Notes under the pieces: model-generated
Told to the model about the DNA's origin: nothing
Seen by the model: only the letters and a program-made list of their open reading frames with translations
The model's database searches: none
From: Cladophialophora immunda
Taxonomy: Eukaryota; Ascomycota; Eurotiomycetes; Chaetothyriales; Herpotrichiellaceae
Assembly (NCBI RefSeq): GCF_000835495.1
Contig: NW_015622546.1
Coordinates: forward strand, 3,962,955 to 4,026,954
Direction of reading: 5' to 3'
DNA length: 64,000 nt
Position numbers and translations under genes: made by a program
Shown: positions 40,829-45,686 of the stretch, piece after piece
Position numbering within the stretch: the first letter of the stretch is position 1
Layout: the number at the start of each line of letters is the position of its first letter

Positions 40829-42152
40829 TCAAGAAGATATCGGTGCAGACGAAGGACTCCAAGCGTTTGGGTTGGATTCGATGTATGGTTGTGTGACACA
40901 CCAACAAGTCCGTTGGAAGGGATGAAAAAGCGCCGGAGTCGCATCGCCTCCATCGTTGAAACATGTCATGGCAGCACAAGCTTCCGCAGTCATCTTTGCA
41001 TTGTAGAGGTCTGGCTCAACCAAAGTCCGGGCGTCCAGTGTTTTGCCTACATCGTTAAACATGCAACCGCAATATCCATCGGTGCCCTTGATCTTGTTCA
41101 TGTACTGGAAAGGGCAGGCCCGGTCACATTGAACACTCCAGATTTGTCGTCTTTGTGGTTCAACATACACAATGTCGCGGTCAAAGCTGCGTTTGTCGGC
41201 TCCCTGAGATACGGCGGTGAGAGTCAAAGCCGTACTCTGGGTCGTATTCATCTTGTCGATATCCGCAACCACATTGTTCCCAAGGACTGAATAGACGCTG
41301 CCATCGTTTAGTTTCTGGATCCAGTACGTGGCGATGTGTGGATTGTACATGTTGATAGCGATGCAATGACAATCAGCAACCGCCGTCTGAGGCTGTCCTT
41401 GGCCTTGGTTCACCACCAGGGGTACCAACGCCAGATTGGGTTGAGGGTTGACCAGTCCAATTGTGCCACAGGGTAAAGAAGTACTGCAGTTGACCACAAG
41501 CGTTGTTGGCACCGGACCGTCTAATTGCAGGTAGATTTGGATGACGCCGTCTAGAAGATAGGGGACCATGGAGCTAACTATTGCCGTGTTCTGGGGCTGG
41601 ACACTCAAGGATTGCTGAATCAACTGTTGTGTGATGTCTTGGTTAGGTGGAGGGATGAATGTCGGGACTGCAGTATCAATTCCCGGTGCTGGGCTCGTTT
41701 GTGTCTGCCGTCGGCGCAAGTCTTTTACGGGCTGTTGATATTTCTCTGAGAATGAATCGTAGGCTTCATTCGCCTTGTTGGACCAGTCTTCCATTGTGCC
41801 ACAGTAACACGAATCTGTCATCACCGAGTAGAATGTCTCCTTTCCATTTTCACATTCCAAGGCACCGCATGGCTGAGGGAACTGAACAAGGACTGATTAG
41901 CAACGGCCACACAGCTGAGGCGTATTTAGAGTCCGAACTTACGGGCGTCCCGGACCACAGGGGACATGAACAAGAGAATGTTGACAGGTCGAATATCGCT
42001 TTCCCAAAAAGACAACTTTGAGATGAACATAGTTGGTCAAGAACAGCAAAGACCCGGCTTTGCAGAACACCAAGCGCGTGATCCGTCCTCGTTGGAGCCG
42101 CACCTGACAGCCCAACAAGCCACATTGTGGTGACAAGAGCTGTGAAGATCAT
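40829..42152 (-). CDS. Secreted protein with five repeated four-cysteine (C..C..CxC) modules, 420 aa
   Basis: Exons 42152-41943 and 41881-40829 (61-nt phase-0 intron, GTAAGT..TTCAG). Residues 1-18 are a signal peptide (MIFTALVTTMWLVGLSGA). All 20 cysteines fall into five modules of the form C-x(3-5)-C-x(13-32)-C-x-C, ending SCSC, SCYC, DCHC, YCGC and TCWC. Modules 1 and 2 are adjacent, and the intron lies between them. A dibasic DLRRRQ site and a Pro/Gln linker separate them from module 3, which has the longest inner spacing; modules 4 and 5 end the protein. Several NxS/T sequons are present. I know no named family with this pattern; CFEM domains have eight cysteines but different spacing. 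A wall or extracellular role is inferred from the export signal. Confidence 0.82.
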
Positions 42153-43220
42153 TTCGATGGCCAGCCTCGCAGCTTATCACAACCTTCAAATGAGAGGGAT
42201 GTAGTAATGATGAAGATGAACAGGCTTAGATGTGTACCAAGGGATAGAGAGAGCTAGGAAGACGGAGTGGTAAGGGTGCACAACAGTTCACTGAATAAAC
42301 AACGAAGAATTGGGACTGCCGGACCTTGTGTAAAGACCAGGTCCGCAGCGCACCTACCTGACCACAGAGTCTTCACTACACAAGCAATCAATTGCCAACC
42401 GAAAACCGTATCAAGCAGGAGCGCTGTTCACCCTGTGCAAGACATTGGCACCTTCTAAAAGATTTGAAATATGAGCATTGGAGAAGCAAAAGCTGCTTCA
42501 TAGGTTGACAGTCACATAGCTTTGCCCAACAGTATGTTCTTCTGGCAGGACATGATGAGCCCAACAGTGGCATTTCGCTCACAATGAGTGATGCACACCA
42601 GACTGACAAGGCTGGGCTTGTCCCAAAACAATGGCAAGGCTGGCCATAGCACTCAAAATCAAGATTCACGTGGCGCACCTGTGCCAAGACGCTAAGGCAA
42701 GAGCGGCATTTCCTTTATTCCGATCCGAAGCCCAATGTGGAGCAGTCTTACGTATCTTGGCTAACGGGCCCAACGGCCAAAGGCCAGCATCTGCGTCAAA
42801 CCTCCATCCTCCCAATGCGACTTGTGTCTACACGTACAAGTCCTGAGGCATGTAAGGCAGCAATCGCTTCAGACGGCTGGTGCCGTGGACGCCATTTGCC
42901 AGCTCAGTGAATACATGCCCTGCTTAGTCCAGGTTTCGCTTCCGCTTTCGTGATGTGTTTCACTCTGGTTGCTCAATGCTGTTGCGGGAGGCTGGGAATC
43001 TTCAGCGGTGTCTGCCCGCACCCACCAACCACCTCACCATCATCCACGAGCACAACCAGCTCAATCCCAGCCTCGCATTCAACGCTCTCTTCTTAATTCT
43101 CCGATCGCCTCATTAACTTTACTCCCTTGCTTTCTTTCCGTGTCGTTAACGTGCGTCTCTTGAGTTTTCCGCTCCTTTTGGGTTTTGCGCATCCTTTGCT
43201 CACTACCCTTCCCCAAAGTG
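42153..43220. other. Divergent promoter between cysteine-module gene and DUF3433 gene
   Basis: No supported gene; a pyrimidine-rich stretch precedes the DUF3433 start. Confidence 0.5.
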
Positions 43221-45686
43221 ATGAACTTGGTCACTGATCCCGACGCTCACATCCAGACAGTCAAACGAACCACCCCTCAATATATCAAATCCGACTCTCT
43301 CAAGTCCTCTTCGGCTACGAACGAGTACTTTTCAGACTATGCCTCCGAAGTTGCCAGTCAAAAGTCGGACGATTCCAAAGCGAGCTATGAGACGCCTCCC
43401 TCACGCATCTCTACTCCGCTACAAGTGCATCACAACCCTATCGATTCCGAGATGACACTCCCTTCAAGACCTGGCGCAATTCAGCCGGCTCCCTTGAACA
43501 TTCGACACAGCCAACCTGCAGGTGCACAGTCGACGGTGCGGATGCTGTCTAGTTTCGACGAGATGAGCCCTCCGACTCCTGGGGTTGACGATACACCGTA
43601 CATCCGATTTGCCATCGAGCAGTTAACAAGAGACGAGGATGTCATTGGTCGAGGCAGGGATAGTACATTTCCTGCTCCGCAGGTGCCTCTTCCAGCGCCC
43701 CTACCTCCCATCGAGCCTGGCTTTGACGAAAGCCCTCATGCGCCAACTCCGTCTCCTCCGCCGACTCCACCCCCCCAGCCTGCCTCGCCTCGTCCGCCCT
43801 CTCGCGCTCCTTCACAAACAGGCCTCCAAGAGGTTATGATCCCAGTTGATCTTTCGAAAGACCTTCGTTTACGACTCGGCTTTGTACCACTACCTTTACG
43901 ACTTCCAATTCTTGGTCTATTCTTCCTCCTATGCCTTTTAATGATCGCCGCCCTGATATTCAGCCTGGTCTTCGCAGGCACGAATCATGCACTCTTCAAC
44001 TATGATGGAAATACGACGCCGCGCTACTTTGTCTTCCAGTATCTACCACAACTGGTTGGCATTCTCTTGATCCTGTGGCTTTTTGTGGTCGAGGCCGCAG
44101 TGTATAGATCCCTGCCTTATTACTGCATGGGCCCAGGTCGCCGCAATCACTGGGTTTTGCAAAACATGCGAATTCTTCCAGCAAACTATCTGCTGCCAGA
44201 CCTCACGTTCTTCCGGAATGGCGAGTCCTTGTTGGGAGTTACATTCTTGATCTTCTGGATGACGAGTTTTACGGTCCCGCTTCTCGCATGCGTCTTCCAG
44301 ACACAATGGATCACAGATGACGGGCCGGCACGTTTCCGATGGACGGCTGTTAGAGGCGTTGGCTGGACTCTAGTGGCGCTATATGTCCTTCTTTGCCTTG
44401 GACTCTTGTATTGCGTCTTTCGCTTTCGGCGACGGAATTCCAACTTACTCTGGGATCCCTGCTCTCTCGCTGATCTGATCTGCTTGTTCCGGAGGTCAAA
44501 TGTGGGTCCAGACTTTGAGCAATCCGAGATATCACCACAACCGAACGTGCAGATCCCACCCAGAAATCTGCGCCTAGGTTTCTTCACCACGTCTGAACGC
44601 CCCGAAGTATTCCATGCCGTGGGAGAGGAGTACGCCCCTGTCAAACGCCTATCATTTCCACCCGAGAAGCCGAGAACTGTCTATGGCCCCAACGACCAGG
44701 TTGATCTTGAAGCTCAACGGCATTCTTATGGCTCTGCGTTCTCTCGCAACATCCATTCGCCTTTTGTCCGGTACCGGTGGACGCCTTGGTTCCTCCGCGA
44801 CTCATTCGTCTTGGCATGGATTGTGGCTGCCGTTCTGCTGGTCATCGCCTTTTTGGTCGTCAGCTTCGTCAACAAAGCGGTGCAAGATGGCTTCCGCCCT
44901 CTCCTCCCGTCTTTGACGGATTCGAGCGGCTTCTCACCCGCCAACTTCCTCTACAGCTTCCTGCCAGCATTTCTTGGCATGGTGCTGTTCCTCGCTTGGC
45001 AGCCGATTGACATGTATTACAGAGCAGTCCAGCCGTTCCGCAATCTCTCCCAGCCAAGTGGTGCCACAGCAAGGAAGTCACTACTGCTCTCATACCCTTC
45101 CTATGGACCTGTGCGAGTCGTTATCCGGGCCCTGATCAATCGCGATTACAAAGTTGCATATATTGCCTTCATCTCGATACTCTTGCTCTCTATTCCGGTG
45201 CTGGCTGGTGGAGTGTTCACTGCAGTGTTCTTCTCCTCCGATAACCAAGTCAGAATTGTCGCCAGCTTGCCTGGGTACATCGCGTTGAGCGTGCTGGTCA
45301 CTATCTATGCACTCTCGTACCTGATTATCTGGCCGACCAGGAAGCGGTACCTGCCGCACAGTATTGACACCATTGCAGCACTTCTGAGTTGGCTATATGC
45401 CAGTCCATTGCTCGGTGATGTCGCGCTACAGAACATTGGAACGAAATCTGAGTTGATCGAGAGATTGACAGGGTCAACTATTACTCCAGCGCCACTGACC
45501 GGTGACGGCGAATTGGAGGAAAAAGGTCGTCGATCACGGCGTGCTGTCCGCCGTCTAGCACATGACGTTGGGATGAGGTACGCATTCGGAATCTTCGTCG
45601 GTCGAGACGGGAAAGAGCACCTTGGCATCGACCGCTTGCAGAGGCCAGGTAGTCGAGAAATGCTGGTCGTGCCGACTTCGCGCTAG
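43221..45686 (+). CDS. DUF3433 multi-pass membrane protein, 821 aa
   Basis: Single exon from MNLVTDPDAHIQTVKRTTPQ. About 210 residues of Ser/Pro-rich cytosolic sequence are followed by eight likely membrane spans: LPILGLFFLLCLLMIAALIF, QLVGILLILWLFVVEAAVY, VTFLIFWMTSFTVPLLACVF, VGWTLVALYVLLCLGLLYCV, AWIVAAVLLVIAFLVVSFV, FLYSFLPAFLGMVLFLAW, VAYIAFISILLLSIPVLAGG and YIALSVLVTIYALSYLIIW. The segments LLWDPCSLADLICLFRRSNV and AVQPFRNLSQPSGATARKSL, with LLSYPSYGPVRVVIRALINR, are hallmarks of fungal DUF3433, which usually occurs as two half-units, as here. These proteins are large, fungal-specific and of unknown function, probably at the plasma membrane. The in-frame codons before 43221 lack an ATG. 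Confidence 0.88.
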   Translation: MNLVTDPDAHIQTVKRTTPQYIKSDSLKSSSATNEYFSDYASEVASQKSDDSKASYETPPSRISTPLQVHHNPIDSEMTLPSRPGAIQPAPLNIRHSQPAGAQSTVRMLSSFDEMSPPTPGVDDTPYIRFAIEQLTRDEDVIGRGRDSTFPAPQVPLPAPLPPIEPGFDESPHAPTPSPPPTPPPQPASPRPPSRAPSQTGLQEVMIPVDLSKDLRLRLGFVPLPLRLPILGLFFLLCLLMIAALIFSLVFAGTNHALFNYDGNTTPRYFVFQYLPQLVGILLILWLFVVEAAVYRSLPYYCMGPGRRNHWVLQNMRILPANYLLPDLTFFRNGESLLGVTFLIFWMTSFTVPLLACVFQTQWITDDGPARFRWTAVRGVGWTLVALYVLLCLGLLYCVFRFRRRNSNLLWDPCSLADLICLFRRSNVGPDFEQSEISPQPNVQIPPRNLRLGFFTTSERPEVFHAVGEEYAPVKRLSFPPEKPRTVYGPNDQVDLEAQRHSYGSAFSRNIHSPFVRYRWTPWFLRDSFVLAWIVAAVLLVIAFLVVSFVNKAVQDGFRPLLPSLTDSSGFSPANFLYSFLPAFLGMVLFLAWQPIDMYYRAVQPFRNLSQPSGATARKSLLLSYPSYGPVRVVIRALINRDYKVAYIAFISILLLSIPVLAGGVFTAVFFSSDNQVRIVASLPGYIALSVLVTIYALSYLIIWPTRKRYLPHSIDTIAALLSWLYASPLLGDVALQNIGTKSELIERLTGSTITPAPLTGDGELEEKGRRSRRAVRRLAHDVGMRYAFGIFVGRDGKEHLGIDRLQRPGSREMLVVPTSR

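Follow-up and report, generated by a model that had tools for sequence, protein, structure and literature searches.

The window analysed here is a stretch of 64,000 nucleotides from Cladophialophora immunda (NCBI RefSeq assembly GCF_000835495.1, contig NW_015622546.1, positions 3,962,955 to 4,026,954 of the forward strand). Its minus strand contains a two-exon gene whose predicted product is a secreted protein composed of short cysteine modules, a central domain and Kex2-type cleavage sites. The features of this gene are listed below by position in the window, all on the minus strand; x4, x13 and the like give the number of residues between successive cysteines, a slash marks the predicted cut, and fractions refer to the homologous sequences described further on.

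40829..42152, minus strand: whole gene, 420 residues in two exons, secreted-type product, as delimited from the spliced translation
42152-41943, minus strand: exon 1, with the signal peptide and module 1
42096..42152, minus strand: probable signal peptide, residues 1-19, from hydropathy and the model of a relative
41964..42029, minus strand: module 1, C42-C63 (x4/x13/x1)
41942-41882, minus strand: intron of 61 bases, GTAAGT..GCTAATC..CAG, separating modules 1 and 2
41881 to the stop codon at 40831-40829, minus strand: exon 2
41801..41869, minus strand: module 2, C75-C97 (x4/x14/x1)
41708..41716, minus strand: Kex2-type site 1, L-R-R-R/Q, residues 126-128; [KR]R in 47/56
41201..41629, minus strand: central beta-rich domain, residues about 155-297, with one invariant pair, C208/C241
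41363..41488, minus strand: the former 'module 3', C202-C243 (x5/x32/x1); not conserved as four
41189..41194, minus strand: Kex2-type site 2, K300-R301/S, past the central domain; [KR]R in 54/56
41153..41188, minus strand: 12-residue spacer peptide SFDRDIVYVEPQ, between sites 2 and 3
41147..41152, minus strand: Kex2-type site 3, R314-R315/Q, ahead of module 4; [KR]RQ in 42/54
41063..41128, minus strand: module 4, C322-C343 (x3/x14/x1); complete in 48/56
40898..40978, minus strand: module 5, C372-C398 (x4/x18/x1), WSC-core-like; complete in 54/56

The intron contains a branch-like site, GCTAATC, and the database models of relatives P0014, P0015 and P0018 cross the same exon junction as the window gene. 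The top-scoring 19-residue hydropathy window of the whole protein begins at residue 1, and the AlphaFold model of relative P0018 has a helix (residues 2-15) at the position of the signal peptide. No membrane-like stretch was found at the C-terminus, where the best 19-residue hydropathy window starting after residue 380 scored 0.09. Because of the hydrophobic, signal-like start and the lack of a membrane-like stretch near the C-terminus, the protein looks secreted and not membrane-anchored. This agrees with the secretion proposed in an earlier, sequence-only reading of this locus.

The protein contains 20 cysteines (positions 42, 47, 61, 63; 75, 80, 95, 97; 202, 208, 241, 243; 322, 326, 341, 343; and 372, 377, 396, 398), all of which fall into five sets of the form C-x(3-5)-C-x(13-32)-C-x-C, with the inner spacings listed above for modules 1 to 5. 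When 20 cysteines were placed at random 200,000 times in the stretch of 401 residues past residue 19, five such sets never arose, and at least five C-x-C pairs arose in 0.12% of the placements. The arrangement of all 20 cysteines in five sets, with the spacings given in the sequence-only reading, is a real and exact property of this protein; equally, the RRR at residues 126-128 and the Pro/Gln-rich linker lie downstream of module 2, where they had been described.

Homologue searches returned 44 proteins in the first round, 40 in a second round from the alignment of these proteins, and nine in a third round from P0049. The counts given here use 56 sequences, namely 55 returned proteins and the spliced window protein; P0001 and P0050, which are fragments of the window protein, were left out, and P0039 and P0042 have no usable C-terminus. 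The named sources are Fonsecaea, Cladophialophora, Exophiala, Capronia and one unclassified Chaetothyriales species. The lineage was checked for two of the named sources, and the remaining genera we take to belong to the same order.

Many database models start inside exon 2, which lowers the number of sequences that cover modules 1 and 2. All four cysteines of module 1 are present in 17/56 sequences; the module is partial in three and absent in 36, where it is either uncovered or lost. The corresponding numbers for module 2 are 23/56 complete, eight partial and 25 absent. Most of the partial cases are database models that start within the module; in P0053 and P0054, one complete set was split by the alignment. 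Module 4, where it is not complete, is absent in six sequences and broken in two. Five homologues (P0049 and P0051-P0054) lack module 4 and keep module 5. In P0049, the N-terminal part contains four sets (4-13-1, 5-22-1, 4-12-1 and 3-14-1), followed by two central cysteines and a single C-terminal set (4-15-1). As judged from the alignment, cysteines outside the centre of the protein are gained and lost in whole fours, with few exceptions.

The central domain is the best conserved part of the protein. C208 and C241 are each present in 56/56 sequences, C202 in 12/56 and C243 in 31/56. All four cysteines of 'module 3' occur together in 7/56 (the window protein and six others), and C202 and C243 are distributed independently, with C202 alone in five sequences, C243 alone in 24 and neither in 20. 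Because C202 and C243 vary independently of each other around the invariant C208/C241, 'module 3' is, on this alignment, not a unit, and the centre is a single domain with one conserved cysteine pair. Conservation of the cysteines in sets of four, which the sequence-only reading had itself proposed as the test of its five modules, thus holds for modules 1, 2, 4 and 5, a few exceptions aside, and breaks down for module 3, for which the full set is found in only 7/56.

Among the 47 sequences with site 1, position P4 is occupied by Leu in 26 and by Ile, Val or Ala in 11, and Gln follows the cut in 36. Site 3 was counted among the 54 sequences that have site 2, and Pro is found at P4 in 33 of the 42 sequences with this site. 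Kex2 is described as favouring Leu, other aliphatic residues or Pro at P4 (PMC8528282). The spacer peptide together with its terminal KR or RR measures 13-15 residues in 37/42 sequences and contains YVxP in 19/42. The kexin cleavage raised as a possibility in the sequence-only reading gains from the conservation of Kex2-type sites, one of them often with Leu at P4, the cleavage itself being predicted. A single match to the proprotein-convertase P domain was found in the genome of C. immunda. In P0044 (Chaetothyriales sp. CBS 132003), site 2 is followed, at residues about 271-298, by four tandem KREQGNQ copies, which form a row of Kex2-type sites.

The relatedness of the modules was analysed by scoring the profile of each module on the other modules; modules 1 and 2 were represented by 12 sequences each, module 4 by 45 and module 5 by 54, with controls in which the non-cysteine profile columns were shuffled and the cysteines kept fixed. 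The real mean of the module 5 profile was reached by 12/300 controls on module 1 and 2/300 on module 2, that of the module 1 profile by 3/300 on module 5, 145/300 on module 2 and 137/300 on module 4, and that of the module 2 profile by 3/300 on module 5, 201/300 on module 1 and 209/300 on module 4; these and the other shuffle counts given here are not probabilities, because the sequences in each comparison are related. Module 4 yielded 215/300 controls when scored with the module 5 profile, and its own profile yielded 276/300 on module 5, 168/300 on module 2 and 209/300 on module 1. For the window protein alone, the relation between modules 2 and 5 is clear (2 and 6 of 300 controls). In hhalign comparisons, modules 1 and 5 matched at a level reached by 3/300 cysteine-fixed shuffles, and no other pair rose above such shuffles (out of 300: modules 1-2, 225; 1-4, 51; 2-4, 28; 2-5, 36; 4-5, 279). 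The whole N- and C-terminal pairs matched via modules 1 and 5 (1/200 shuffles). By these comparisons, modules 2 and 5 are related beyond their cysteines, as are modules 1 and 5 when the whole family is considered, and module 4 shares with the other modules its spacing alone. The idea that the modules align with one another better than with shuffled sequence accordingly stands for the pair 2-5 and, family-wide, for 1-5, and falls for module 4 and for the pair 1-2.

No Pfam family was reached by the window protein or its homologues in Pfam searches, in agreement with the view, expressed in the sequence-only reading, that no named family has this arrangement. That view needs to be qualified, however: the spacing has a named parallel, because the WSC core carries nearly the same C-x3-C..C-x-C, and this core, by the profile test, appears to resemble module 5 beyond the cysteines. 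The WSC domains used for comparison were taken from the C. immunda genome (12, later 16, of 20 matches), and 11 of the first 12 contain a C-x3-C-x(13 or 15)-C-x-C core. The WSC-core profile built from the 16 domains scored a mean of 5.0 bits on module 5 of 54 sequences (1/400 column-shuffled controls) and 7.3 bits on module 5 of the window protein, with its x4/x18 gaps (1/400 controls). The full WSC profile scored a mean of 8.9 bits on 45 C-terminal pairs, compared with 1.5 bits on cysteine-fixed shuffles of the same sequences, 2.6 bits for the reversed WSC profile, and an average of 1.0 and a maximum of 7.5 bits for 30 column-shuffled WSC profiles; CFEM and PAN profiles scored 1.4 and -1.8 bits, respectively, on these pairs. 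In hhalign, the WSC match to a 13-sequence set of C-terminal pairs was reached by 6/200 shuffles, and that to the N-terminal pair by 33/200. The alignment between WSC and the C-terminal pair is in register across 'YxGC..R-L...MTxExC...C....CyC' and spans just the first 54-56 WSC columns.

The window protein has no Pfam WSC match at E values up to 10, in a search where filters drop most weak matches. Likewise, the eight-cysteine WSC order with its C..C..CGG loop was not found, and the window protein has no cysteine past C398. Because neither the Pfam cut-off nor this order is reached, module 5 is read, from its sequence, as a minimal WSC/PAN-like core and not as a member of WSC. PAN domains gave no Pfam match either, and a PAN profile of eight sequences (three duplicates of 11 stretches were dropped, and one of those retained, L043, is below the Pfam cut-off) scored below the shuffle mean on both pairs.

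An AlphaFold model was obtained for P0018, which is 50% identical to the window protein, from a 44-row alignment; P0039 and P0042 were left out of the alignment for a second model. The predicted local distance difference test score (pLDDT) of the P0018 model, taken by ten-residue blocks, is 77-92 for the N-terminal pair (residues 41-110), 70-91 for residues 171-300 save one block at 56, 72-82 for module 4 (321-350) and 70-80 for module 5 (371-400). It drops below 50 in the linkers 121-150, 301-310 and 351-370, and each of the three dibasic stretches falls within or next to a linker of low confidence. Module 1 is modelled as a helix (37-47) that holds the first cysteine and two strands (56-58 and 63-65), and module 5 likewise as a helix (372-377), again with the first cysteine, and two strands (389-391 and 396-398). 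In this model of moderate confidence, both modules thus consist of a helix followed by two strands, the second of which carries C-x-C, and modules 2 and 4 are hairpins terminating in C-x-C. In yeast Wsc1, as described in PMC9024836, the disulfides C49-C69 and C53-C71 tie the helix to strand beta4 and are common to PAN/Apple domains, and C27-C86 and C90-C98 are specific to WSC.

UniRef names of the homologues vary: five of P0015, P0018, P0020, P0021, P0035 and P0039 are called 'Extracellular membrane protein CFEM ...', P0021 is named 'WSC domain-containing', and the remaining relatives are uncharacterized. These CFEM and WSC names are probably machine-given, without any Pfam cut-off being reached. 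If the automatic-looking names were followed, the protein would be a divergent member of CFEM (PF05730), which it resembles in having eight cysteines per pair and, in modules 1-2, a C-x-C-x11-C-x4-C segment shared with 8/12 CFEM matches from the C. immunda genome; the hhalign match of CFEM to the N-terminal pair was reached by 9/200 shuffles. The cysteine order differs, however, in that one CFEM cysteine has no counterpart between the second cysteine and the C-x-C and an additional one stands at the end; moreover, the AlphaFold model shows beta-hairpins, the N-terminal part of P0049 carries four such sets, and no Pfam CFEM match was found for the window protein or its homologues. A CFEM profile, which is rough because the 8/12 genomic stretches used for it included translated flanks, scored a mean of 0.95 bits on the N-terminal pairs against 0.34 bits for shuffles, its score on the window protein being reached by 92/200 shuffles, and hhalign of CFEM against the C-terminal pair gave 94/200. 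A CFEM origin is therefore, in our assessment, very improbable.

Our favoured reading, to which we assign a probability of roughly 0.5, is that the gene encodes an extracellular protein that is matured by Kex2 and carries minimal modules resembling the WSC/PAN core, which probably bind wall or matrix glycans. A secreted precursor would probably be cut by Kex2 in the late secretory pathway at the three conserved dibasic sites. This would yield modules 1-2 as an N-terminal piece, the central beta-rich domain with one disulfide, the 12-residue peptide, and modules 4-5 as a C-terminal piece. Modules 1, 2 and 5, at least, would be minimal WSC/PAN-core-like units, each with its C-x4-C segment bonded to the C-x-C strand that ends a beta-hairpin; in modules 1 and 5 this segment starts in a helix. 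The first cysteine is predicted to pair with the third and the second with the fourth, the outer WSC disulfides being absent. The analogy with WSC proteins suggests that the pieces set free would most likely bind wall or matrix (glucan) outside the cell. What the computations establish are the gene structure, the conservation of the cysteines and sites, and the relatedness of modules; secretion, cleavage, cystine pairing and glycan binding are predictions. WSC proteins are reported to include a glucan-binding lectin and a glucanase (PMC9024836), some of them bind glucan (PMC9024836, PMC9252488), and the extracellular polysaccharide matrix of one fungus is described as enriched in WSC proteins (PMC9252488).

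Several results weigh against this reading. The Pfam cut-off for WSC was reached by no protein, the lowest E value among 44 members being 0.011, and the best whole-protein E value with our own WSC profile, among the matches listed and for a library of Pfam size, was 0.22. The WSC-core profile is weak on module 2 (30/400 controls; 14/400 for the window protein) and shows no match to module 1 (377/400) or module 4 (330/400), and the WSC profile scored a mean of 1.8 bits on 12 N-terminal pairs, below its reverse (3.5). The hhalign comparisons of WSC with module 5 (24/300 shuffles) and module 2 (29/300) are weaker than the profile test, those with module 1 (250/300) and module 4 (206/300) are negative, and that with the 45 C-terminal pairs gave 21/400. 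The relation between modules 1 and 5 does not show up when the window protein is taken by itself (101 and 69 of 300 controls), and the profile test revealed no similarity of module 4 to the other modules beyond spacing. The pattern of whole fours has its exceptions, with Ser in place of the second module 4 cysteine in P0048, one reduced N-terminal set in P0051, one odd additional cysteine in P0052 and a stray extra cysteine in a few N-terminal parts. Site 1 was not found in 9/56 sequences, one of which, P0049, has an RRQ further upstream, and site 3 was not found in 12/54. The confidence of the models is moderate (mean pLDDT 68.7 for P0018 and 68 for the second model), and structure searches found no convincing PDB match for either.

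Some of these results, namely the behaviour of module 4, the lack of WSC matches to modules 1 and 4, the weak hhalign result for module 5 and the failure to turn up a Pfam family or a solved relative, would also be expected if the four-cysteine sets were unrelated small disulfide knots that converged in spacing, with a chance likeness of module 5 to WSC. Such convergence appears quite unlikely, given that modules 1 and 2 each match module 5 in both directions against cysteine-fixed controls, and that the WSC match is specific, for the C-terminal pair against reversed and shuffled profiles as well as CFEM and PAN profiles, and for module 5 alone against shuffled profiles.

The gene was the sole locus matched in the C. 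immunda genome (42.2 Mb, 39 contigs) when exon 2, the C-terminal pair or P0049 was used in searches that score best candidates only. Because of this single place in its own genome and the occurrence of the family in many Herpotrichiellaceae, we infer that its product is more likely to be a permanent constituent of the wall or matrix than a rapidly evolving protein directed at a host. It also looks like a lineage-specific variant of an already known type and not like something wholly new. Among the papers listed from the open-licence literature, we recognised none that describes this family.

A bolder extension of the favoured reading, which we regard as doubtful, is that of a lineage-specific extracellular polyprotein built on a stripped WSC core of about 25 residues, with four cysteines and two disulfides, that now exists as an independent module whose number can vary. 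Tandem pairs of this module would be released by Kex2 from a lectin-like centre, and so would a length-conserved 12-residue peptide (often YVxP) that might be a secreted signal. If this were true, the smallest autonomous WSC/PAN unit would be about 25 residues with two disulfides, which could be threaded in series or lost like a bead. Such a unit would help to account for orphan cysteine-rich secreted proteins that domain libraries miss or label inconsistently, and the black yeasts would gain a Kex2-cut multi-piece extracellular protein.

The open frame adjoining the gene (43164-45686, plus strand, 840 residues) encodes a DUF3433 protein (Pfam E 9e-33). Elsewhere, WSC matches occur in rows, at least five in a 941-residue open frame (G000 C2:38974-40632) and at least six in a 1498-residue open frame (G000 C7:2820613-2823336). 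The stretch of module 4 (residues 322-343) was also considered as a BMP receptor 1B ectodomain; the profile matches, which cover 'C..CP...TDGYC', had E values of 0.003 to 0.13 and were judged to be due to chance.

Among known systems, K2PP effectors and KEPs likewise have Kex2-type sites between pieces, often with Leu, an aliphatic residue or Pro at P4. KEPs, as defined in PMC7329392, must contain three or more tandem repeats, each 8-100 residues long, separated by such sites. In the window protein, neither the length nor the cysteine content is constant from one inter-site piece to the next, which places it outside this definition. K2PP proteins are described as carrying an N-terminal pro-domain (PMC8528282); in the window protein, by contrast, cysteine-rich pieces flank the central domain on both sides. 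By comparison with such Kex2-processed pro-domain proteins, the terminal cysteine pairs could alternatively be propeptide-like or chaperone parts, with the central beta domain as the mature, for example lectin-like, working protein; this division of roles we hold to be somewhat unlikely.

The closest known systems also include PAN and WSC. PAN/Apple domains (PF00024, PF14295) have both helix-to-strand core disulfides in common with WSC, according to PMC9024836. The PAN matches in the C. immunda genome differ from the modules: their C-x3-C is followed shortly by another cysteine, and most of them have no C-x-C. Also comparable is Ss-Sl2, a secreted fungal wall protein described as having two putative four-cysteine PAN modules missed by Pfam and as needed for sclerotium development (PMC3338822). 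WSC (PF01822; the cysteine-rich domain of Wsc1, 7PZ2) is near modules 1, 2, 4 and 5 in core spacing, its profile matches module 5 and the C-terminal pair, and each of its four core cysteines has an equivalent in module 5. Unlike WSC, modules 1, 2 and 5 have a first gap of x4 instead of x3, and the window protein lacks the WSC-type C-terminal cysteines and CGG loop past module 5.
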